Source of the DNA: Melioribacter roseus
Lineage (GTDB): Bacteria > Bacteroidota > Ignavibacteria > Ignavibacteriales > Melioribacteraceae
NCBI GenBank assembly: GCA_020723165.1
Contig: DYJK01000002.1
Location: 31,650-77,197 of the forward strand
DNA: 45,548 bases
Direction: 5' to 3'
Shown here: piece by piece, positions 1 to 12,130 of the stretch
How positions within the stretch are numbered: position 1 is the stretch's first letter
Layout: each line of letters starts with the position of its first letter
Notes under the pieces: model-generated
Databases searched by the model: none
What the model was told of the DNA's origin: nothing
Seen by the model: the letters and a program-made list of their open reading frames with translations, nothing else
Translations under genes and position numbers: made by a program

Positions 1-1263
1 TAATCCCATTCTTCTATCACCGGGGCGGTGGATAATACCATCAATCCACCCGGTACCGGTAACCGGATTACCTGATAATGTAAATTTAGTTTCAAGACCG
101 GTTGTAGGATCTACGAATGGAACGCCGGTTGTAGAAATCTTACCTTCCAACAAATTATGGAATTGAACTGCACCAATCGGTTCGCCATCTTCAGGATCTG
201 TATAAACCGGGTCACTATTAATAAAGAAAAAGAATGCAGACATAGGAAGGTTTCTATAATCATCTAAATACTGACCATTGAAAACTGCTCTGCTGCCTTC
301 TGAAGGAACGATTGGGCCCTGGAAGAAATCGAATCCTCCGGTGGGAACATATTCACCAAACTGAGCATCAAAATCATCGCCATTATAAATAAAACCTAAA
401 CTCAGGTCAACATCGCAACCGGTATAATCGTCACCGGCATCTCCTAAGTCAGGATCACTCCACATACATACATACATATCTTCAATATCAACACCGCTTT
501 TATTTATTAAAGTATATTTGCGGAATAGTGCATTACCAAGACCGCCGGAAGCATTATAACCCCAAATTGTAGCTTGCATTTCGCAGCCAAGCCCAAGTGT
601 ACCATAGAATGCTTGCTGAGCTGAAGGATCTAAATCGTTGCAAACAAACCAAATTGTTTGATCAGCACCGGGAACACCTGGAACATCAACTGCCGGATTG
701 TATGAACCATTACCATCAACATCTTCGTATGGTGCACCATAAATCGCCGGCCATTCGTTCCAGTCTTTATCATAATATAAATAAACACTATCTGCAGTCC
801 AATTATCACCTTTTGCAATTTCATTACTGAAATCAGCGTCTGGATCTTTATAATCACGTCTTACTCTATAAATTCTTACGTGAGCTAAATTACCGTCTTC
901 ACCAGTTCCATTATCTAAAATTCGTCCGGGAACCTGGCTATGGAAATAAGTAGAACCGCCAATACGGAATTCTCCATTATAGGTTCCACCATAGACAAAA
1001 CCGGATTCATAAAAGACGGTTGTATTTGAACCTTGGGGATACTCAAAACCTGAATCCTGACCGTTAAGATCAGACATACCATCATTTCTAAATATTGTAG
1101 CTACATTATTGATAGTAAACCAGGTTGCTTGAGGATTACCAAGTACTTTATTTAATCTAGATTTTCCCTTGCCACTATTTTCACCTTTAGCTTGAACATC
1201 AGGTTGAAAAGTGATAAGAGAAATCAGAATTAGAAAATAAACTATTCTATTTAAGTATTTCAT
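1..1263 (-). CDS. Secreted hypothetical protein, C-terminus beyond window
   Basis: This reading frame stays open from the start codon to the left edge (about 420 codons), so the C-terminus is missing. The first residues form a signal peptide (MKYLNRIVYFLILISLI), so the protein is exported. ATG at 1263 is preferred over ATG at 1269 because AGGAG lies 8 nt before the former and only 2 nt before the latter. The visible part is rich in Gly, Asp and aromatic residues. It contains an Asp-rich loop (EDVDGNGSYNP, near residue 180) like calcium-binding DxDxDG loops, and a segment reading DMYVCMWSDPDLGD. I know this as a type of large secreted protein in Ignavibacteria that often ends in a type IX sorting domain, but that end is not visible here. 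It lies 30 nt after the TonB receptor, on the same strand, so the two are probably co-transcribed. Function unknown. Confidence 0.8.
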   Translation of the reverse strand, partial: MKYLNRIVYFLILISLITFQPDVQAKGENSGKGKSRLNKVLGNPQATWFTINNVATIFRNDGMSDLNGQDSGFEYPQGSNTTVFYESGFVYGGTYNGEFRIGGSTYFHSQVPGRILDNGTGEDGNLAHVRIYRVRRDYKDPDADFSNEIAKGDNWTADSVYLYYDKDWNEWPAIYGAPYEDVDGNGSYNPAVDVPGVPGADQTIWFVCNDLDPSAQQAFYGTLGLGCEMQATIWGYNASGGLGNALFRKYTLINKSGVDIEDMYVCMWSDPDLGDAGDDYTGCDVDLSLGFIYNGDDFDAQFGEYVPTGGFDFFQGPIVPSEGSRAVFNGQYLDDYRNLPMSAFFFFINSDPVYTDPEDGEPIGAVQFHNLLEGKISTTGVPFVDPTTGLETKFTLSGNPVTGTGWIDGIIHRPGDRRMGL

Positions 1264-1293
1264 TTTCATTTCTCCTATTTATTTCATTGATAA

Positions 1294-4278
1294 TTAATAT
1301 TCTAACCTGATGCCAAGTCTTATCTGGCGTGATGGGCCATATAAGAAGCTTGCATTATCAATGTTCAATCCTCTATAAAGTTGAGCGTATGCATCTCCAA
1401 ACAAATTAATTTTATCAGCAATGTTTTCAGGATCTGTAACATAACCATCGTCATCAGCAGAACCGGTTCCGATGAATACGTTTGTAACATTCTTTTTATC
1501 AAACAAATTGATCACAAAAATGTAAACATTTGCCGATAAACGATCCCAAATCTGGAATGTTTTGTCAAGTCTTAAATCGACCTGGAAGTTTGAAGGCATT
1601 TGTGATGAATTTAAAGGTTCAAGAGCTAACCTAAAACGACCGTCACCGCTGAGTGGCTGGGTATTACCAATTTGCAACGGATTACCTTCACCACGGGTAA
1701 ATGGTCTTCCGCTTTCATATGTGAGTAACACTGAAACTCCGGTGTTACTTAAGAATGAAGGACCGTCATTTTCACCAAAACGGTAATCTAAATTCATACG
1801 AGCTGTAATATCACGATTGAACTCGAGAGGAGAAATATATTTTGGAGTATATGGTTGACCGGGAACAAGAGGAGCGCCAACAATACCACGGTTTGAACCG
1901 GCAAATGAACCGGTACCGCGTGCATCCTGGAATGATATAGAACCGTTCATAGATAAACGTTCAAATCTGCGCATTGTTAAGCTAATTTCAATACCTTTTG
2001 TTGTTGCAAAGTCACCATTTGTTTTAACGTAATAATCGCCGAAAGATGCTTCAGCTTCTTGAAGAACAAATACTACTTGATCTTTAATGTCCCTATAATA
2101 ACCGGTAACGTCAAAAGCCAAGAAATCTGTTAACTGTTGTGAGAAACCTATTTCATATTGTGTTGTTCTTGTTGGTCTCAAACCAGGACCGGTAAAATTA
2201 TTACCAAAGAAACGACCGGTAAGCAACATATATGCATAGGTATTATAACCCCAATATGATTCTGTAAGAGCCGGCTGTTGAACGAACTTTCCATACTGTG
2301 CATGGAAAACTGTTTTATCAGTAACCGGGAACGAAAAACCGATTCTCGGGCTTACAGAACTGAATGTTGGGGCGTCAACCCATCCGCTTTCAATCAAAGT
2401 TTTATTATTACGATTGATTGATAATGATGGCTGGGTAGGATCGAGCAGTTGTTTATTGTCAATATCGAAGTAATCATATCTTAAACCAACATTAAGAATA
2501 AGATCTTCATACTCAATTTTATCTTGAATGTAAGCAGATGCAAATACCGGTTTATGAGGTGCATAGAAACCTTCTTCATCGGTTTCATTACCATATACAT
2601 CATAACCAAAAGCATTGACACCACCAGTAATTAAAATATCTTTTTTGATTTCATCAACTGTCTTTCCAGCATTTAACGGATCTCCCAATTGAACATTTAA
2701 GAGATCAGCTAAAGTAGCCGATGGTACAAATGGTAAACTCCATGATCTTAATGTATAAGTCTGGTATTCACCACCTATCTTAAATGAATGTGTCTTACCA
2801 AGTAAGAAAGATAGAGTACCGTTAAAACTCCAACTGTTGTTTTCAGATTTAGCATAATTGACCGGAACGTTACCATTAACATTAAAATCCCAGTCAAATA
2901 TTGTATATGGTTGTGGAGTTTTGTAACGTCCGTAGTTCTTGCCTCTTGCATCAGCATCTGTACGAGTCCAAATCCAGCCGGCTTCAGCATTTGCAACGCT
3001 ATCACCGTAGATCCACGGATCTTTTGGTAAATATCTGTCAAATGTTTCACCTTGTTGGAAATAGTAACCGGCACTTAATTCATAAAACATATTCTGACTT
3101 AATACGTGTGTTAACTTCAAGCTGAATGTACCGTTTGATGATTCATTAATACCAACACGGTTATTTAATAAGTTAAGAATACCGAATGCACCTTGATCAC
3201 TATTTGAACTTGTATAGTTACCGGTTAGTCTTACAAGTATGGGTTTAAAATCCATATTTAGAGTGCCGGTATAAGTAAAGTTTTGTGATTGGTTTTTAGG
3301 ACGTGCGCCAGCCGGATAAACAATATTAACAGTGTCACCGGTTAATGGATCGCCTAAAATTCCCATATTTAATCCCGGGTAATTTGTAGGGTCATTATCA
3401 CGGTTATAAACATAGTTTATATTAGCAAAGAATTTAAAGCGTTGGTCAAAAATTGGTCCGCTTAAAACACCGCTCAATTCATTGTATCCCCACCAATAAG
3501 CGCCAAGTCGTTTTTCACCATCATATGCATCATCTCTTCCCTTGAAAGTAACGTTATCAGTAATGTATTCAAAGCTGGCTTTAATATCAGAACCACCGCT
3601 CTTTAATGACTGCCTAACAATACCGGCATTAGCATTACCAAATTCAGCAGTGTAACCGCCGGTTTGAACTTGAATTTCTTCTAGAGCATCTTGAGAAATT
3701 GTAACACCCCTGGCACCGCTTATCGGGTTCTTAATAGAAACACCTTCTAAGTAGTAACCGGTTTCATCACTTCTACCACCGCGGATATGGAAATTTCCGT
3801 TTGCAGAAATTACACCGGCAGTAAGAGTAATAATATTATTTACACCTCTAACCGGAAGAGCTTCGATATCTTCCGAGGTAGTAATTCTAACAGCATTTGT
3901 ATTGTCTTTTTGCACAAGAGGTTTTTGTGCAACTATTTCTACAGTACCTACTTGAATATCTTCGCTTGGTAGTTCGAAGTCAATGTAGGTTGTAAGGTCT
4001 GCGTTAATTCTTACATTAGAAATTGTAATAGTTTGGTAGCCGAGATAAGAAGCGCGAACTTGATAAACACCGGCATCCAGATTTTGTAAGAGAAATTCAC
4101 CGCTTGCATCTGTTGCTGCACCAGTAGATGTGCCCATAACAATTACGTTAGCACCTATCAATGCTTCGCCAGTTTGCAAGTCAACTACTTTTCCCTTAAT
4201 CCGTCCCTTTGTACCAGCGGTTAATAGTACCGGGCAAAGAGCTAGAAATAGCAAAAAGTAAAAAATCCTTCGATGCAT
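1294..4278 (-). CDS. TonB-dependent receptor, SusC/CarboxypepD_reg type
   Basis: An outer-membrane receptor of 994 residues that would import a substrate using TonB energy. A signal peptide (about 1-22) is followed by a carboxypeptidase-regulatory-like domain (about 25-110, GKVVDLQTGEALIGANV). Next come a plug domain (about 115-235, with FHIRGGRSDETGYYLEGV and EFGNANAGIV) and a beta-barrel rich in aromatic residues that ends in Tyr (IRLGIRLEY), as expected for outer-membrane barrels. AAGGAG sits 6 nt before the ATG. A 21-codon leader ORF ends inside this ribosome binding site, and two promoter-like sites lie further upstream. The gene downstream encodes a secreted protein. No SusD homologue is visible, so the substrate cannot be named; it could be a peptide, glycan or siderophore. 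The family assignment is secure. Confidence 0.95.
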   Translation of the reverse strand: MHRRIFYFLLFLALCPVLLTAGTKGRIKGKVVDLQTGEALIGANVIVMGTSTGAATDASGEFLLQNLDAGVYQVRASYLGYQTITISNVRINADLTTYIDFELPSEDIQVGTVEIVAQKPLVQKDNTNAVRITTSEDIEALPVRGVNNIITLTAGVISANGNFHIRGGRSDETGYYLEGVSIKNPISGARGVTISQDALEEIQVQTGGYTAEFGNANAGIVRQSLKSGGSDIKASFEYITDNVTFKGRDDAYDGEKRLGAYWWGYNELSGVLSGPIFDQRFKFFANINYVYNRDNDPTNYPGLNMGILGDPLTGDTVNIVYPAGARPKNQSQNFTYTGTLNMDFKPILVRLTGNYTSSNSDQGAFGILNLLNNRVGINESSNGTFSLKLTHVLSQNMFYELSAGYYFQQGETFDRYLPKDPWIYGDSVANAEAGWIWTRTDADARGKNYGRYKTPQPYTIFDWDFNVNGNVPVNYAKSENNSWSFNGTLSFLLGKTHSFKIGGEYQTYTLRSWSLPFVPSATLADLLNVQLGDPLNAGKTVDEIKKDILITGGVNAFGYDVYGNETDEEGFYAPHKPVFASAYIQDKIEYEDLILNVGLRYDYFDIDNKQLLDPTQPSLSINRNNKTLIESGWVDAPTFSSVSPRIGFSFPVTDKTVFHAQYGKFVQQPALTESYWGYNTYAYMLLTGRFFGNNFTGPGLRPTRTTQYEIGFSQQLTDFLAFDVTGYYRDIKDQVVFVLQEAEASFGDYYVKTNGDFATTKGIEISLTMRRFERLSMNGSISFQDARGTGSFAGSNRGIVGAPLVPGQPYTPKYISPLEFNRDITARMNLDYRFGENDGPSFLSNTGVSVLLTYESGRPFTRGEGNPLQIGNTQPLSGDGRFRLALEPLNSSQMPSNFQVDLRLDKTFQIWDRLSANVYIFVINLFDKKNVTNVFIGTGSADDDGYVTDPENIADKINLFGDAYAQLYRGLNIDNASFLYGPSRQIRLGIRLEY

Positions 4279-4288
4279 ACTTTACTCC

Positions 4289-4354
4289 TTAATTTGTTGA
4301 TTTAATTAAGAAAGGGTTTTTTTTGAAGTGAAAACTTGTAAAATCAAATGTCAA
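4289..4354 (-). CDS. Putative 21-residue leader peptide upstream of TonB receptor
   Basis: A short ORF starts with TTG at 4354, five nt after a perfect Shine-Dalgarno AAGGAGGT (4360-4367), one of the strongest ribosome binding sites noticed in this window. It encodes 21 residues, five of them Phe, beginning MTFDFTSFHFKKN. Its TAA stop (4289-4291) lies inside the AAGGAG of the receptor gene, so ribosomes finishing it would sit on the next start site. This geometry suits translational coupling or a leader-peptide switch. It could also be a chance ORF or a degraded gene start; the strong Shine-Dalgarno is the main argument that it is translated. No function is known. Confidence 0.45.
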   Translation of the reverse strand: MTFDFTSFHFKKNPFLIKSTN

Positions 4355-4527
4355 TAAGTACCTCCTTCTTTAAAGAGTGTTATTGATGTTAAGTTTTAGT
4401 TAATTATAAAAACTTTAATATGGTTCTCAATTTTTGCCCTCATTAAAATGGAACCATCAATTTGATTTTTGAGTCTAAAATGCTGCAAATAATAAAAAGT
4501 TTATTTTTTTGTCTTAGAAGCGTGTTC

Positions 4528-4556
4528 AAAATAACTCAATGACCTTTCTAAGTCAA
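4528..4556 (-). promoter_or_regulatory. Proximal promoter candidate for the TonB receptor
   Basis: On the minus strand TTGACT (4551-4556) is followed after exactly 17 nt by TATTTT (4528-4533), a sigma70-like arrangement. It would give a leader of about 240 nt before the receptor gene. The distal site at 4610-4638 has the same architecture. Confidence 0.45.
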
Positions 4557-4609
4557 GTATTTATTAATTTTTTTGAGAAATTCAAAAAGTATCTCTCATT
4601 TTTGGTTTG

Positions 4610-4638
4610 AAAATAATATATCACTCTTCTTTTGTCAA
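4610..4638 (-). promoter_or_regulatory. Distal promoter candidate for the TonB receptor
   Basis: On the minus strand TTGACA (4633-4638), 17 nt, then TATTTT (4610-4615). The extended form CTTGAC-N17-TTATTTT is shared exactly with the site 82 bp downstream at 4528-4556, which argues against chance for both. Confidence 0.45.
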
Positions 4639-4703
4639 GGTGTTAAATAAGTAGCATAAAAATTCGTCCCCGCCAAAATTGAACGAAAATTGCACTTTCA
4701 ACT

Positions 4704-5708
4704 TCATCTGTTTCCTTCATCTTTACGAGAACATATTTTTATATTAACACCACTCTCATTATAGATAGCTATTCCCCCAAAGTATGTACAAAACCATTTA
4801 TTGTTTTTATCATCAGCATATACATAAAAAACGTGATTGTCCGGCAAACCGGAATTTGTTTCTAAAAAATGATTCCATGAATTATTGTGCAAACTTAATA
4901 CACCGCTACTAAATGAAGTCAACCATATTTTATTATTTGTATCCGAAGCAGCCGATCGGAATCCTATAAAAGGAATATCAGAATTATTTTTATTATAAGA
5001 TCTATATTTGTTTTCATCATAAATACCTAAGCTGCCGTATTTGTACGCGAACAAAATTCTTCCTTGTTTATCTGATGTGATTTGATAAATTCCATAGTCA
5101 TCACACTTACCAAAAATTTCATCTTGAATGAGCCATTCTCCATTTTTTATTAAAAGTGTTTCTTCTGTTGTACCGATCCAAACGTTATCGCTGCTATCAA
5201 TAAATACAGAAGTTATTTTATTAACCGGTAGTTTAGAGTTCGACGAGTTAAAAATTTGGAATGACTTTCCATCAAATTTAACTAACCCTTCATAACTTGT
5301 TCCTATCCAAATATTATTTTTTGAATCTACTGCTAAAGAATAAATACCATCATCTGGGATAACAGAATTTTTCGAATTGTACAAAACCCATTCTTCACCT
5401 TTTATATGAACTAAACCTCCGCCATACGTTCCAATCCATAAATCACCATTATTATCAACGGCAAGAGCTTTAATATTATTATGTGGTAATTTTGAATTGG
5501 AGCTATCATACAAAGTCCAATCATTTCCATTAAAAAAAACGAGACCGGCATCATAAGTGCCGATCCAATAATTTTTATCTCTATCTTGTATTACACACTG
5601 AATGGAATTTGTAGGTAAACCTGGATTACTTTTATTATAAATAATCCATTGGTTTGACTGGGAATATAGATTAATGATTTGTAAAAAAAATATTATTAAT
5701 AATCTCAT
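4704..5708 (-). CDS. Secreted seven-bladed Reg_prop beta-propeller protein
   Basis: The mature part consists almost wholly of two-component-regulator propeller repeats. Seven blade signatures can be counted: NYWIGTYDAGL, DLWIGTYGGGL, NIWIGTSYEGL, NVWIGTTEETL, a divergent RILFAYKYGSL, KIWLTSFSSGV and NKWFCTYFGGI. Seven make a complete propeller. The N-terminus is a hydrophobic signal peptide (MRLLIIFFLQIINLYSQ), so the protein is periplasmic or secreted. ATG at 5708 is chosen because it starts directly at the signal peptide. A TTG at 5723 would add five residues and overlap the trxA stop; neither start has a clear ribosome binding site. Unlike most Reg_prop proteins it has no kinase or DNA-binding output domain, so it cannot signal alone. 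It follows trxA with a 7-nt gap. Its ligand is unknown. Confidence 0.85.
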   Translation of the reverse strand: MRLLIIFFLQIINLYSQSNQWIIYNKSNPGLPTNSIQCVIQDRDKNYWIGTYDAGLVFFNGNDWTLYDSSNSKLPHNNIKALAVDNNGDLWIGTYGGGLVHIKGEEWVLYNSKNSVIPDDGIYSLAVDSKNNIWIGTSYEGLVKFDGKSFQIFNSSNSKLPVNKITSVFIDSSDNVWIGTTEETLLIKNGEWLIQDEIFGKCDDYGIYQITSDKQGRILFAYKYGSLGIYDENKYRSYNKNNSDIPFIGFRSAASDTNNKIWLTSFSSGVLSLHNNSWNHFLETNSGLPDNHVFYVYADDKNNKWFCTYFGGIAIYNESGVNIKICSRKDEGNR

Positions 5709-5715
5709 CAAAAGA

Positions 5716-6036
5716 TTATACAAGTTTACCCAACTTTTCTACAAAAACTGTTTTTGGCACAGCCCCAATGATTGTATCTTTAAGTTCCCCACTCTTAAAA
5801 AATAATACTGTTGGAATACTTCTAACTCCAAATTTGATTGCTGTCTGCTGATTATCATCAACATCTAGCTTGCCAACTTTAACTTTGCCTTCATATTCTG
5901 CCGATAGCTCTTCAATAATTGGCGCTATCATCCGGCACGGACCACACCAGGCAGCCCAAAAATCTACAATTACAGGCACATCGGATTTTAACGCTTCTGT
6001 ATCAAAATTTCCATCTGTAAAAGTGAAAGGTTTCAT
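5716..6036 (-). CDS. trxA: Thioredoxin
   Basis: A 106-residue cytoplasmic thiol-disulfide oxidoreductase of classic thioredoxin length. It carries the WCGPCR redox motif at residues 30-35 after the conserved VIVDFWAAW strand, and the cis-proline motif SIPT near residue 74. There is no signal peptide, so it is the cytoplasmic type and not a TlpA-like periplasmic form. AAGGAG lies 11 nt before the ATG. The gene is fourth from last... in order, it follows the SDR and acyl-CoA dehydrogenase genes and precedes the propeller gene, all close together on one strand, so it is probably read from the promoter near 8100. No special link to the neighbouring genes is evident. Confidence 0.95.
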   Translation of the reverse strand: MKPFTFTDGNFDTEALKSDVPVIVDFWAAWCGPCRMIAPIIEELSAEYEGKVKVGKLDVDDNQQTAIKFGVRSIPTVLFFKSGELKDTIIGAVPKTVFVEKLGKLV

Positions 6037-6074
6037 ATTTATAAATACTCCTTGATTAATTTAATACACCGTAA

Positions 6075-7217
6075 TTATACTATACCATTTTTCTTTAAAA
6101 CTTCCCTCGCAATAATTCCTTTTTGAATTTCGTTTGTTCCTTCAAAAATTCTATTGATACGGGAATCTCTGTAAAATCTTTCAATCGGTAGTTCGCGCGA
6201 GTAGCCCATGCCGCCATGAATTTGAACTGCATAATCAACAATTTTATCCAACGATTCCGAGCAGAATAATTTAACGATAGCAGATTGTCTTGAAATATCT
6301 TTTTTCAAGTCGTAATCTACTGCTGTACGGTATACTATCGACTCCATTGCGTAAACTAAAGTAGCCATTTCAGCAAGCATAAATTGTATCGCTTGAAAAT
6401 GTGAAATTGTCTGATCGAATTGTTTTCTTTGCTTAGCATATCGGGAAGACATTTCCAATACTTCTTTTGCCGAACCGGTACATGCAGCGCCGAGTCCCAA
6501 TCTACCGGCATCAAGAGTTTTCATTGCAAGAATAAATCCTCTGCCGTCGGTACCAATTAAATTTTCTTTTGGTATTCTAACATTATCAAATGTAATAGGA
6601 TTTGTTGTACTTCCTTTAATTCCCATTTTCTTCTCCGGTGGGCCGGCATGAAAACCCTGGGTACTTGTTTCAACTATAAATGCACTTACACCTTTAGATG
6701 TACGTGCAAACACGCTAACTATATTTGCAATACCTCCATTTGTAATCCATAACTTTTCACCATTAAGGACCCACTCATTACCATCTAATTCTGCACGTGT
6801 TTTAACATTAAAAGAATCGGAACCGGCTTGTGCTTCAGTTAAACAAAAAGCGCCTATCTTCTCTCCCTTGGCAAGCGGAACAAGATATTTTTGTTTCTGT
6901 TCTTCGGTTCCGCCAATGTAAATTACATTAGCACCAATTGATTGATGTGCACCGATAAATGTTGCAGTTGACATACAGCCGCGTGCAATCTCTTCTTGCA
7001 TCAAACAATAGCCAATCTCACCGAATCCCCCTCCACCATATTCTTCGGGAAAGGAGACTCCGAGAAATCCGAGTTCGCCAAGTTTTTTAATCAGGTCATC
7101 AGGAATTTTTTCTTCAGCATCAATTTTAGAAGCGATTGGTTTAATTTCATTATTAACAAAATCGCGTGCCATTTCACGAAGCATTTTTTGCTCTTCGGTA
7201 AAAGTGAATTCAGTCAT
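6075..7217 (-). CDS. Acyl-CoA dehydrogenase
   Basis: An FAD-dependent enzyme that introduces a trans-2,3 double bond in acyl-CoA during beta-oxidation or branched-chain amino acid breakdown, passing electrons to ETF. The length (380 residues) is typical. The N-terminal helical domain begins FTEEQKMLREMARDFV. The middle domain carries the FAD/substrate signature (AFCLTEAQAGSDSFNVKT and WITNGGIANI). The C-terminal domain has QRKQFDQTISHFQAIQ and the segment YRDSRINRIFEGTNEIQ, whose Glu in FEGT is the catalytic base position of the short/medium-chain type. Substrate chain length cannot be fixed from sequence; the closest general class is short-chain/butyryl-CoA dehydrogenase. It lies 15 nt after the SDR gene and 38 nt before trxA. 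Confidence 0.95.
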   Translation of the reverse strand: MTEFTFTEEQKMLREMARDFVNNEIKPIASKIDAEEKIPDDLIKKLGELGFLGVSFPEEYGGGGFGEIGYCLMQEEIARGCMSTATFIGAHQSIGANVIYIGGTEEQKQKYLVPLAKGEKIGAFCLTEAQAGSDSFNVKTRAELDGNEWVLNGEKLWITNGGIANIVSVFARTSKGVSAFIVETSTQGFHAGPPEKKMGIKGSTTNPITFDNVRIPKENLIGTDGRGFILAMKTLDAGRLGLGAACTGSAKEVLEMSSRYAKQRKQFDQTISHFQAIQFMLAEMATLVYAMESIVYRTAVDYDLKKDISRQSAIVKLFCSESLDKIVDYAVQIHGGMGYSRELPIERFYRDSRINRIFEGTNEIQKGIIAREVLKKNGIV

Positions 7218-7232
7218 AGATTGTTTCCAGGT

Positions 7233-8057
7233 TTATTTAATAATGCTACTTGTATTTTCACCAATATAATTTACAATATACTCTCCGCCATCTACACCAA
7301 TTACATTACCTGAAATCCAACTTGCTCTTTCATCACATAAAAGAACAATGGCCTTTGCAACATCTTCAGGGGTTGTTAATCTGTTATGAGGATTTTTCAT
7401 CTTAGCCGAGCTCATCATTTTATCAAACATAGGAATTTTATTCCCAGCCGGTGTATCTGTTACTCCGGCCATAATAGAGTTACATGCAATATTCATCGGG
7501 CCAAGTTCTACTGAAAGCTGACGTATGTGTGCTTCGAGTGCGGCTTTTGCTGCCGAGACTGCACCATAATTAGGAATAACTGTGTGTGAACCGGCACTTG
7601 TTAAAGCGAAAATTCTTCCTCCTTGTGCAAAAAGATTTCTGTGTACTAAACCTTGAGTCCAGTAAACTAAAGAATGAGCCATTACATCAAGCGTCATGTT
7701 CATTTGTGCCGGTGAAATACAATCATTCGTATTTTTCGATATGTATGGTTTTAATGTTCCGAATGCAAGCGAATGGATTAATACATGTACATGCGGATGT
7801 TCTTTTACTGCAAATCTTTCTTTTATTTCATCAAGTGTATCATTTATTTTTATTTGATCGGCGGCATTGATATTAAAGAAGACCGCTTTCTGCCCGGTCC
7901 GTTCTATCTTTTTAATAACTTGTTGAACAGCGGGCATTGTTGCCTGGCGATCGAGATGAATACCAAAAATATTATAACCGGATTTTGAAAGTTCAATAGC
8001 GGAAGCGCCTCCAAATCCGCTTGAAGCACCTAATATAAGTGCCCATTTATGTTCCAT
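7233..8057 (-). CDS. SDR-family enoyl-ACP reductase-like protein (FabI/FabL type)
   Basis: A 274-residue short-chain dehydrogenase. The N-terminal nucleotide-binding motif is GASSGFGGASA. The active site has Tyr and Lys separated by six residues (NYGAVSAAKAALE), as in FabI and FabL enoyl-ACP reductases, instead of the usual YxxxK. The rest (RQLSVELGPMNIACNSIMAG, then GNVIGVDGGEYI near the C-terminus) matches divergent SDRs of that kind. The likely reaction is NAD(P)H-dependent reduction of an enoyl thioester; 2,4-dienoyl-CoA reductase activity is an alternative. It is the first gene of the operon with acyl-CoA dehydrogenase, trxA and the propeller gene, 29 nt from a good promoter match. The operon partner fits fatty-acid metabolism, but biosynthesis and breakdown cannot be told apart. 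Confidence 0.8.
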   Translation of the reverse strand: MEHKWALILGASSGFGGASAIELSKSGYNIFGIHLDRQATMPAVQQVIKKIERTGQKAVFFNINAADQIKINDTLDEIKERFAVKEHPHVHVLIHSLAFGTLKPYISKNTNDCISPAQMNMTLDVMAHSLVYWTQGLVHRNLFAQGGRIFALTSAGSHTVIPNYGAVSAAKAALEAHIRQLSVELGPMNIACNSIMAGVTDTPAGNKIPMFDKMMSSAKMKNPHNRLTTPEDVAKAIVLLCDERASWISGNVIGVDGGEYIVNYIGENTSSIIK

Positions 8058-8085
8058 TTACTACCCTCTTCTTTTAATAGTGGCA

Positions 8086-8116
8086 CAAACTTAAGAAATC
8101 AAATATAGAAATCAAA
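8086..8116 (-). promoter_or_regulatory. Bacteroidota-type promoter for the SDR-acyl-CoA dehydrogenase-trxA operon
   Basis: On the minus strand TTTG (8113-8116) is followed after exactly 19 nt by TAAGTTTG (8086-8093). This matches the known Bacteroidota housekeeping promoter pattern TTTG-N19-TAnnTTTG. The TAAGTTTG box ends 28 nt before the ATG at 8057, giving a short leader. Confidence 0.6.
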
Positions 8117-8171
8117 CGATATCGATTTTTGAATTTTATTTGAGTTGAATTTTCGGAAAAAACTAATGGTG

Positions 8172-8642
8172 CTAAAATTTAAAATCACTTTTTTTAGTTA
8201 ATATATAATTCAAATCTGATTTTATCTTCTTCCTATTTCTATCTAACATCGTTAACCGGTCTCTCATATTGGTTAGTCTAACAAAATAGATTTGATTTTT
8301 TTCCGGCTGATCATAATTAAGAACAAATACCGTAGCATTAACATCATTTTCAAATCCGCGTTCAGTATTAAGTTTTCCATGAGACATGAATGGTTGAGCA
8401 TCCTTTCCCAGATACACTTCGACTAATTCGTACGATTGAAAATCATCGGCAATTTTCAATGTCATCTTAATTCCTTCACAGTCTGCACACGGAATAATCC
8501 CCTCATAAATTTCGAATTGAGATGACTGAACAGTTTCACTTTTCTGTTTTGGCAAAGAATCATTTTCTTCACCGGATTTTTGAACACAACCCCCTGATAA
8601 TGTGACAACCAGAACGGATACAATTAAAATTAATTTCTTCAT
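8172..8642 (-). CDS. NlpE-like copper-resistance/envelope-stress lipoprotein
   Basis: A 156-residue exported protein with a signal peptide ending LSGGC, a somewhat unusual lipobox whose Cys (about residue 19) would be lipidated. After a Ser/Lys-rich linker, the segment YEGIIPCADCEGIKMTLKI (about 46-64) is the signature of the NlpE N-terminal domain, including its CxxC pair. The following residues form the expected small beta-barrel (YELVEVYLG, FMSHGKLNTE, LTMLDRN). In enterobacteria NlpE senses surface contact and copper at the outer membrane through the Cpx system. No Cpx genes are visible here, so only the fold is claimed. It lies 32 nt after dnaE and may be co-transcribed with it. Confidence 0.85.
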   Translation of the reverse strand: MKKLILIVSVLVVTLSGGCVQKSGEENDSLPKQKSETVQSSQFEIYEGIIPCADCEGIKMTLKIADDFQSYELVEVYLGKDAQPFMSHGKLNTERGFENDVNATVFVLNYDQPEKNQIYFVRLTNMRDRLTMLDRNRKKIKSDLNYILTKKSDFKF

Positions 8643-8674
8643 TTAACAAATTTTTTCTGTAAAGACTAACATCA

Positions 8675-11600
8675 TTAATTTGGGAAATAAACTATTGCCT
8701 CATCTCCGAGTAACGTACGAAGAGTATCTACAAATTTATCAGTTAAACTAACCCGGTAATCGATAGTAAACTCTCTTATCGAACCATTATCCTTAATACA
8801 AATCAATACCGGGACGTTGCCTTCGTTTTCTTCCAACAGCAATTTTATATGTGTGATAACGTATTCATCATGAAGCGAAGTATCGAGAATAATACCCAGT
8901 CGTTTGGTGAGCTTGACTCTAACAACATCGAGGTTAAGTGCTTCATCTACGTGCAGTTTAATTGTATCACCGCTGCTTTCAAGTTTACCTTTAACCATTA
9001 TTGTGGATTCCGGGTAAATGATCTCGCTGAAATCTTTGTAAGCTTTTGAAAACATTATGCAATCGCACGAGCCGGAAAAATCATCGAGTTTAAAGAACGC
9101 CATTTTCCTACCCGATTTATCAGTCTTTGGGGTAACATCGGTAACTACTCCGCAAACACGTACCTGATCATTCAGATTAAATGTTGAAGGTTCGCCAAGA
9201 TGAACCGTTGCAAATGAATTATATTCAATCTCATACTTTCTTAGCGGGTGATCACTCAAATAAAATCCCAATACTTGTCTTTCTTTTGCAAGCCGTTCTT
9301 TTGTTTCCCATGGTCTTACATCGGGTAAAGAAGGTTCTTCAAAATCGATAACTTGTGCGGAACCGCCAAATAAACTATTACTGTGCGATTCTTTAACGGA
9401 TTTCATTCTACTTCCGATACCTAATGCTTCTTCAATTGCAGCTAAATATTGTGCACGTGAACCGCCAAGCGAATCGAATGCACCGGCAAGAACTAATCCT
9501 TCTAATGCTCTTTTATTCACAATTCTCGTATCAATATTCGAACAAAAATCATAAATACTTTTAAAATCCCTATTCAAATTTTCGTGTGCTCTTTGAATTT
9601 CCTGAACTGCTTGTACACCAACATTTTTGATCGCAGCCATTCCGAAAATAATCTCACCACTTTTTACCTTAAACATTACAGTGGGATGATTAATATCAGG
9701 CGGCTGTACTTTAACACCAAGTTTTCTGCAATCTTCTAAAAGAATTGTAACTTTATCAGTGCTGTCATACTTGTTAGAAAGATTTGCTGCGAGAAACTCT
9801 TCTAAGTAATGGGATTTTAAATAGGCAGTTTGATATGCGACAACACTATATGCAACAGCGTGAGATTTATTAAAACCGTAATTGGCAAATTTATCGATCG
9901 CTTCAAAAATTTCTTCGGCTATTTTTTTTTCAATTTTATTTTTTGATGCGCCTTCAACAAATTTTTCTCTTTGTTGTTTCATTGCAGCAAGATCTTTTTT
10001 ACCCATAGCTCTGCGCAAAAGATCTGCTTCTGCTAAACTCATTCCGGCAACTTTATTAGCAATCTGAATAACCTGTTCTTGATAAACAATAACTCCATAA
10101 GTTTCTTTAAGAATCTCTTCCAGCACCGGGTGCAGATAAACAATTTTTTTCTTGCCGTGTTTCCTTGCAATAAAATCATCTATAAATTCCATTGGCCCCG
10201 GACGGTACAAAGCATTCATAGCTGAAAGATCTGTAATGCTGTTAGGTTTTAGCTTTTTTAAGTATTCGCGCATCGGGGCAGATTCAAACTGGAATACAGC
10301 CGTGGTTTGCCCCCTTCCAAACAATTCATAGGTTTTTTTGTCGTCGATAGGTATATCATCAACATTGATATCGATGCTGCGTGTTTGTTTAACTTGTTCT
10401 AAAGTATCTCTTATAATTGAAAGAGTATCGAGACCGAGAAAATCCATTTTCAGTAATCCGGCATCTTCAAGGTCCTTCATGTTAAATTGAGTAACAACAT
10501 CACCTTCGTCACCATAGGTTGCAAGGGGAACAAATTCACTAACCTCACCCGGTGTAATTACAACACCGGCAGCATGTTTGGATGCATTGCGATTCATTCC
10601 TTCAAGTATTCGTGCATATTTCAGCAGTTCTTTCATCAAAGGATCATTTGTTTTTTTCAGCCAGCTCAATTCGGCTACTTCATCCAAAGCTTGATCTATC
10701 GTGAACACTCTGCCAAACTTCGATGGAATCCATTTGGTTATGTTATCTACTTGCGGTATCGGAATTTTCAGAACGCGTGCAACATCCCTAATTACTTGTT
10801 TGGAAGATAAACGGTTGAATGTAATAATTTGTGCGACCGAGTTATCGCCGTATTTCTCTTTTACGTAATTAATTACTTTACTTCGTTCATCATCGGCAAA
10901 ATCAACATCGATATCGGGCATCGATTTACGAGCCGGGTTTAAAAATCTTTCAAAGAGTAAATTGTATTCAAGCGGATTGACGTTTGTTATTCCAAGTACA
11001 TATGCAACCAAACTTCCGGCAGCACTGCCTCTGCCGGGTCCTACCGGAATCCCTCTTGCTTTTGATGCATTGATAAAATCTTGCACAATTAAAAAATAGC
11101 CGGCATAACCCATTTTGTCTATTACATCGAGTTCATATTTAAAACGCTCTTCAACTTCCGGGGTAATTTTTTTAATCTTTTTATCTAATCGTTCATAAGA
11201 AAGTTGGTTAAGATATTCTTCCAATGATTTGGCATCTGAATTTTCTGGTATTGGAAAAATCGGGAAATGGTGTCCTTCGAAATCGAGTTTTAAATTTATT
11301 TTTTCGTCAATCTCCAAAGTATTTTCAATAGCATCTTTATAATTCTTAAAAATTTTTTTCATCTCATCTGCTGACTTAAAATAGATTTGATCGGTTCCAT
11401 AACGTAGGTCGTGATAATCGGCAGTGCCTGATTTATCGCCAAGCATAATCAAAATATTGTGAGCTATCGAATGATCTTTTTCTATGTAATGAATATCGTT
11501 TGTTGCGACAAGTTTAACACCGAGATCTTTAGCTAATTTCGGCATACCGTTTAAGATTGGTTGCTCAATATCCATTCCGTGATCTTGAATTTCCAAATAG

Positions 11601-12130
11601 AAATCATCGTTAAAAATTTCTTTAAGCTTAACCGCTACTTCTCTTGCTTTGGTCCAATCATCATTTATCAGGTGCACAGATACCGGTCCGGCCGGACATG
11701 CAGTTGTACAGATCAATCCCTCGCTGTATTGTTTCAAAACTTCAAGGTCAATGCGTGGACGGTAATAAAATCCTTCCGTATGACCAATGGTTGTTAACCT
11801 CATTAAATTTTTATAACCGGTTTTATTTTTAGCGAGCAGTAGAAGGTGGTTGTAATGTTTCGTTTTTTTCTTTCCATTTCCATATTCACCGGATTTATCG
11901 AAGCGTGTTTTATCAATAACGATATACGCTTCCATCCCGATAATTGGTTTAATTCCTTCCTTTTTTGCTTTCTTATAAAACTCGGATACGCCGAACATTA
12001 CACCATGATCAGTTAGAGCAACGGCATGCATGTTATTTTTCTTTGCAGCTAAAATTAAATCCTCTACAGTACACGCACCATCTTGCAGACTGTAGTGTGA
12101 ATGATTATGTATGTGAATAAAATCTGACAT
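8675..12130 (-). CDS. dnaE: DNA polymerase III subunit alpha
   Basis: The replicative polymerase subunit, 1151 residues, near the usual DnaE length of about 1160. The N-terminal PHP domain (about 1-220) keeps HNHSHYSLQDG and LTDHGVMFG. The palm carries GPGRGSAAGSLVAYVLG and the catalytic aspartates of PDIDVDF near residue 400, with the third in KMDFLGLDTLS. Finger and HhH regions follow (LYRPGPMEFIDDFI, GYGFNKSHA-like NYGFNKSHAVAYS). A C-terminal OB fold is visible (VRVCGVVTDVTPK to CDCIMFSKAYKDF). No 3'-5' exonuclease domain is inserted, so this is DnaE and not PolC. The ATG has no Shine-Dalgarno. The gene is preceded by a repeat-rich spacer and dut, and followed by the NlpE-like gene. Confidence 0.98.
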   Translation of the reverse strand: MSDFIHIHNHSHYSLQDGACTVEDLILAAKKNNMHAVALTDHGVMFGVSEFYKKAKKEGIKPIIGMEAYIVIDKTRFDKSGEYGNGKKKTKHYNHLLLLAKNKTGYKNLMRLTTIGHTEGFYYRPRIDLEVLKQYSEGLICTTACPAGPVSVHLINDDWTKAREVAVKLKEIFNDDFYLEIQDHGMDIEQPILNGMPKLAKDLGVKLVATNDIHYIEKDHSIAHNILIMLGDKSGTADYHDLRYGTDQIYFKSADEMKKIFKNYKDAIENTLEIDEKINLKLDFEGHHFPIFPIPENSDAKSLEEYLNQLSYERLDKKIKKITPEVEERFKYELDVIDKMGYAGYFLIVQDFINASKARGIPVGPGRGSAAGSLVAYVLGITNVNPLEYNLLFERFLNPARKSMPDIDVDFADDERSKVINYVKEKYGDNSVAQIITFNRLSSKQVIRDVARVLKIPIPQVDNITKWIPSKFGRVFTIDQALDEVAELSWLKKTNDPLMKELLKYARILEGMNRNASKHAAGVVITPGEVSEFVPLATYGDEGDVVTQFNMKDLEDAGLLKMDFLGLDTLSIIRDTLEQVKQTRSIDINVDDIPIDDKKTYELFGRGQTTAVFQFESAPMREYLKKLKPNSITDLSAMNALYRPGPMEFIDDFIARKHGKKKIVYLHPVLEEILKETYGVIVYQEQVIQIANKVAGMSLAEADLLRRAMGKKDLAAMKQQREKFVEGASKNKIEKKIAEEIFEAIDKFANYGFNKSHAVAYSVVAYQTAYLKSHYLEEFLAANLSNKYDSTDKVTILLEDCRKLGVKVQPPDINHPTVMFKVKSGEIIFGMAAIKNVGVQAVQEIQRAHENLNRDFKSIYDFCSNIDTRIVNKRALEGLVLAGAFDSLGGSRAQYLAAIEEALGIGSRMKSVKESHSNSLFGGSAQVIDFEEPSLPDVRPWETKERLAKERQVLGFYLSDHPLRKYEIEYNSFATVHLGEPSTFNLNDQVRVCGVVTDVTPKTDKSGRKMAFFKLDDFSGSCDCIMFSKAYKDFSEIIYPESTIMVKGKLESSGDTIKLHVDEALNLDVVRVKLTKRLGIILDTSLHDEYVITHIKLLLEENEGNVPVLICIKDNGSIREFTIDYRVSLTDKFVDTLRTLLGDEAIVYFPN

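Follow-up and report, generated by a model that had tools for sequence, protein, structure and literature searches.

A Short Leader Reading Frame with a Strong Shine-Dalgarno Sequence Is Probably Coupled to Translation of a TonB-Dependent Receptor in Melioribacter roseus

We describe a short open reading frame (ORF) in the 5' leader of a TonB-dependent receptor gene of Melioribacter roseus. This leader is probably an upstream ORF that is translationally coupled to the receptor, with a strong Shine-Dalgarno (SD) sequence, SD1, that would load ribosomes and a stop codon that would hand them over at the receptor's own SD, SD2. Comparison with related genomes establishes that the leader SD, the start codon, the open frame and the position of the stop are conserved, and that the start of the receptor gene is constrained at its synonymous sites. 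We infer that the leader is translated, that its coupling to the receptor acts positively and that SD2 pairs in the cell as predicted. This type of control is already known and the leader is a new instance of it; our literature search found no paper describing this leader, which does not mean that none exists. Viewed across relatives, the locus clearly illustrates a leader gene whose reading frame, but not whose peptide, has been retained; it precedes the gene for an outer-membrane receptor and belongs to a lineage with few strong SDs. Re-initiation coupling should be directly testable in the cultured relatives Melioribacter and Stygiobacter.

Results

Architecture of the locus

The window is the whole analysed stretch of 45,548 nucleotides from contig DYJK01000002.1, and all features described here lie on its minus strand. 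Domain matches (CarbopepD_reg_2, Plug and beta-barrel) identify the gene at 1294-4278 as a TonB-dependent receptor of 994 amino acids. Its 5' leader contains the short ORF (4289-4354), which does not overlap any other gene. Direct reading confirmed the layout given in the preliminary description: SD1, AAGGAGGT, at 4360-4367 is separated by 5 nt from a TTG start codon (4354-4352) that opens a frame of 21 codons, five of them Phe, encoding the peptide LTFDFTSFHFKKNPFLIKSTN. The frame ends in a TAA at 4291-4289 that overlaps SD2 (AAGGAG, 4285-4290), and the receptor ATG follows at 4278, 10 nt past the TAA. Two further elements lie within the leader frame, namely the nucleotide motif TTACAAGTTTT at 4331-4341 and the pyrimidine-rich ACCCTTTCTTAA at 4306-4317. 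For the latter, pairing with either SD1 or SD2 is predicted, with no covariation.

Strength and rarity of the leader SD

Duplex energies were calculated with an 11-nt 16S rRNA tail taken from one relative (G078); the tail pattern had no match in G000 or G009. SD1 reaches -13.9 kcal/mol and SD2 -7.7 kcal/mol, and the corresponding medians among the 24 core leaders defined below are -13.35 and -7.7 kcal/mol. The preliminary description had singled out the strength of this SD as unusual, and this holds, as the median for 205 sampled genes is -4.5 kcal/mol and just 6 of them reach -12 kcal/mol. In roughly 400 kb of the same genome plus the window, 314 genes were crudely called, and AGGAGG stands before 10 of them.

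The string itself is not enriched. There are 69 genome-wide matches to AAGGAGGT versus 111 for a reversed control, with many of the 30 matches inspected falling within genes, and GGAGGT shows no enrichment within the window. The arrangement AAGGAGGT-N5-TTG occurs a single time in the genome. A scan of sampled intergenic stretches that required GGAGG and used crude gene calls returned no other GGAGG-led leader ORFs, with one hit in 166 regions of this genome and one in 183 of G009, the receptor's leader both times. In the stretches sampled, then, there is no sign of a genome-wide class of such leaders.

Conservation among relatives

Upstream regions of related receptors were gathered (108, of which 87 are distinct). 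A family-wide search at E 1e-250 matched 39 of 79 genomes, from which 19 loci and 11 stretches were read. A core set of 24 distinct leaders that align with one another was chosen by eye as orthologs that carry GGAGG and a CCCTTTCTT-type block. Five loci with similar receptor starts and no long ORF (L010, L012, L013, L014 and L015) were assigned to the outgroup, and L067/L150, which contains the 3' part of the leader on a contig that ends before SD1, was excluded. L170 is counted among the 24 leaders and is absent from the tree and the codon test (n=23). The core receptors form a monophyletic group that does not include the five outgroup loci (support 0.938, 23 tested).

The preliminary description had proposed comparing the leader in related genomes, with loss of the frame or the SD in close relatives counting against it; both are kept there, as are the TTG and the stop position. 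GGAGG is invariant in all 24 core leaders and is followed 5-6 nt later by TTG in 22 of them, with TTA in the remaining two (L062 and L064). Every core leader has 15-23 open codons in the leader frame, while at least 15 codons are open in the +1 frame of 2 leaders and in the +2 frame of 5. In 19 of the 24 leaders the stop falls on SD2 or beyond it, a count in which L124, whose stop comes one codon early, was scored as a miss. Four others (L006, L066, L152 and L157) stop 10-18 nt ahead of the GGAG of SD2, which suggests that single indels are tolerated. The gap between stop and ATG is 10 nt here, as in 12 of the 24 leaders in all, and ranges from 1 to 26 nt.

Indels inside the leader shift the frame and yet mostly restore it, so that the same stop is usually reached. 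When the 5' and 3' halves of different leaders were swapped, 231 of 552 recombinants had a well-placed stop versus the 19 of 24 natural leaders. Among 5000 random matchings of halves, the share reaching 19 was 0.0002, and with one leader per genus P was 0.045. We regard this as moderate evidence, because relatedness is only partly controlled.

The peptide is not kept in the same way. Because of indels between relatives, the leader frame passes through TTACAAGTTTT in each of the three possible phases, and through CCCTTTCTT in two or more. By hand count, the core leader peptides contain from 1 to 6 Phe; their C-termini differ (for example STN, INK and NKE), and PFL is present in many of them. 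The conservation of nucleotide motifs whatever frame reads them points to an additional constraint at the RNA level.

Outgroup leaders

GGAGG occupies the same place in 12 further leaders outside the core clade, all of which lack a long ORF; L009 (a near-copy of L008), L024 and the pair L030 and L119 were left out of this set. A start codon lies 5-7 nt from GGAGG in 6 of the 12, against a background of 0.054 (P 1.7e-5), and opens ORFs of 2-6 codons. Thus, either the long ORF arose after the strong SD or it disappeared outside the core, and the pattern leaves room for an SD role that does not depend on the ORF. Five outgroup leaders (L012, L021, L023, L008 and L011) have no ordinary start or a very short ORF, yet contain a long open frame from the expected position.

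Receptor start and predicted RNA pairing

Of 439 windows along the gene, the one spanning receptor codons 2-16 shows the strongest synonymous conservation (0.76 versus 0.11 elsewhere). The synonymous sites of codons 1-10 (4249-4278) are frozen, and the segment 4262-4253 is able to pair with SD2. For example, Arg3 is encoded by CGA, which makes up 54 of 1117 Arg codons, in 22 of 23 receptors; TAC encodes Tyr7 in all 23 and TTG encodes Leu9 in 22. The string ATG-NNN-CGA-AA, with its rare Arg codon, also recurs at the starts of related receptors at many loci.

For the predicted helix between the receptor start and SD2, 95.8% of the cells are paired. Ten of the 24 leaders were folded to assess SD2, which has a predicted unpaired probability of 0.001-0.059 in them, versus a median of 0.25 for 32 other genes that carry GGAG. 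When the codons were recoded synonymously, SD2 remained mostly paired (mean unpaired 0.06-0.15), so the encoded amino acids explain much of this pairing. Folding energies were not below those of shuffled sequences (z -1.9 to 1.4), and positions 1-12000 of the window gave no Rfam match up to E 1. Additionally, a conserved hairpin was considered and rejected, as RNAalifold proposed 12 pairs with no two-sided change among them, and as the two helices singled out here showed a single two-sided change, with covariation that did not exceed that of shuffles.

An upstream promoter-like element

An element of the form TTAGACT-N17-GTTCC-N9-AGGGCAAAA lies 5' of the leader at 4432-4478. The full pattern has 5 matches in 10 genomes, all of them 5' of this receptor, and its reversed control has none. 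GTTCC is present in 18 of the 24 core leaders (0.6 expected), and by hand count TTAGAC lies exactly 24 nt ahead of GTTCC in 17 of 22 leaders that contain GTTCC. The element, rigid in its spacing and found with this receptor alone in those genomes, is possibly a promoter for some sigma factor. A sigma70-like candidate, TTGAGA-TATAAT at 4430-4403, was rejected, as no conserved site was apparent by eye in the upstream listings and 3 sites were found versus 2.2 expected from shuffling. Together, the frozen receptor start and the gene-specific upstream element would mark the receptor as tightly controlled.

Discussion

Translational coupling as the favoured explanation

The observations above can be assembled into a mechanism in which SD1 would load ribosomes on a frame of about 20 codons, opened by TTG, in which the exact sequence would hardly matter. 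These ribosomes would terminate on or beside the weaker SD2, whose predicted pairing with the first receptor codons would keep it shut. An arriving leader ribosome may then melt this pairing, re-initiate 10 nt downstream, or both, and receptor output would in this manner track translation of the leader. In the four leaders with an early stop, the footprint of the terminating ribosome could presumably still reach SD2.

The preliminary description had suggested that the leader controls the receptor either by coupling or by ribosome stalling. The SD, TTG, frame and stop kept among relatives argue for coupling, which is probable, whereas the peptide, its C-terminus and its Phe count vary and make stalling unlikely. 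That the peptide is not conserved, while a frozen receptor start is able to pair with SD2, favours coupling over both stalling and attenuation.

Alternative explanations

We have weighed several other readings against coupling. The strong SD may act without any ORF, serving ribosome standby or mRNA stabilisation, with the ORF a by-product. The STAB-SD of cry genes is likewise a strong SD in a 5' leader; it lies near the mRNA 5' end, acts without translation and needs no ORF. The outgroups fit such a role, as they retain GGAGG in place despite frames of 2-6 codons or no ordinary start. The core clade, however, keeps an open frame in all 24 leaders that is mostly restored after indels, and even the outgroups have more start codons at 5-7 nt than the background predicts; we therefore judge an ORF-free role unlikely, though it retains an appreciable share of probability. 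It is rather doubtful that SD1, ACCCUUUCUU, SD2 and the first receptor codons constitute an alternative-pairing switch that responds to translation of the leader, to an RNA-binding protein or to a small RNA. The four elements show complementarity in sequence order and are strongly conserved, and the frozen synonymous sites of the receptor start also speak for it, but covariation is absent, folding z-scores are near 0 and the middle elements are altered in L007 and L127.

A nascent-peptide stall or a Phe-dependent attenuator is suggested by the five Phe among 21 codons and by PFL in many leaders. An arrest peptide would have a conserved sequence near its stall site, where we find differing C-termini and DNA read in three frames, and an amino-acid attenuator would have a conserved run of regulatory codons and a terminator, where we find 1-6 Phe and no terminator-like site within 4200-4720. 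As neither the C-termini nor the Phe content is kept, and as the downstream gene encodes a receptor and not an enzyme of Phe biosynthesis, we consider this explanation very improbable. That an SD-like string and an open frame arose by chance in AT-rich DNA is compatible with the lack of enrichment of GGAGGT in the window and of AAGGAGGT in the genome, but it is contradicted by conservation in 24 leaders of one clade and is hardly credible.

Comparison with known systems

Coupling of the kind that we favour has both statistical and experimental precedents. Korolev et al. (2016, PMC4833913), in the portions used here, proposed that leader genes raise translation through ribosome re-initiation, noting that a ribosome covers about 12 nt downstream and that leader genes of Bacteroidetes peak at stop-start distances of 11-14 bp. 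The present leader resembles that set in being a short upstream ORF with no conserved role for its peptide and a stop some 10-14 bp short of the main start codon; its 10-nt gap corresponds to a distance of 11 in their convention, within the spacing of re-initiation leaders. The work is statistical and, in those same portions, names no such receptor, whereas we follow one orthologous leader across 24 relatives; unlike that set, this leader has a very strong SD and is followed by a frozen receptor start. The mgtQ-mgtB pair of Salmonella (PMC8092293) is an experimental precedent for a short ORF that frees the sequestered ribosome-binding site of a transporter gene. The likeness lies in a short ORF ahead of a transporter-type gene; that SD2 is hidden is a prediction here, with folding z-scores near 0 and no covariation. 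However, mgtQ sits between two genes and depends on Asp/Glu codons (PMC8092293), whereas the leader peptide described here is not conserved.

A third comparison concerns rpsU, where an extended SD is reported for other Bacteroidota, a phylum that makes little use of SDs, in connection with autoregulation of bS21 (PMC9976891); the string 'ignavibacteri' is absent from the text available for that article. Both are isolated, extended SDs in a low-SD phylum, but the rpsU SD serves the main gene whereas SD1 serves a leader ORF (PMC9976891). The -13.9 kcal/mol of SD1, computed with our own 11-nt tail and energy model and not with the pipeline of PMC9976891, lies beyond the bS21-sensitive threshold of -13 kcal/mol given there. 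It could be imagined that the leader senses the state of the ribosome, with its extended SD used mainly by ribosomes with a free anti-SD (such as those lacking bS21) and coupling relaying the signal to the receptor. We assign this idea very little probability; if true, it would link envelope uptake to ribosome composition. The rpsU gene, too, carries an extended SD in all five genomes of the family Melioribacteraceae examined (L213-L217), with energies of -13.3 to -15.7 kcal/mol against a 15-nt tail.

A second leader in another family

A related arrangement was observed in another family of the order, where L030 and L119 contain an ATG-started leader of 29-31 codons with AAGGAGGT and a stop near the SD of a related receptor. 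These two leaders differ at 15 positions, 9 of them third positions, and 3 of the 14 changed codons are synonymous. By peptide homolog search, the L030 leader peptide, MNYNRYTGLKFPSAGIHLIKKLTEDFNKV, is present in 2 of 163 genomes of the order.
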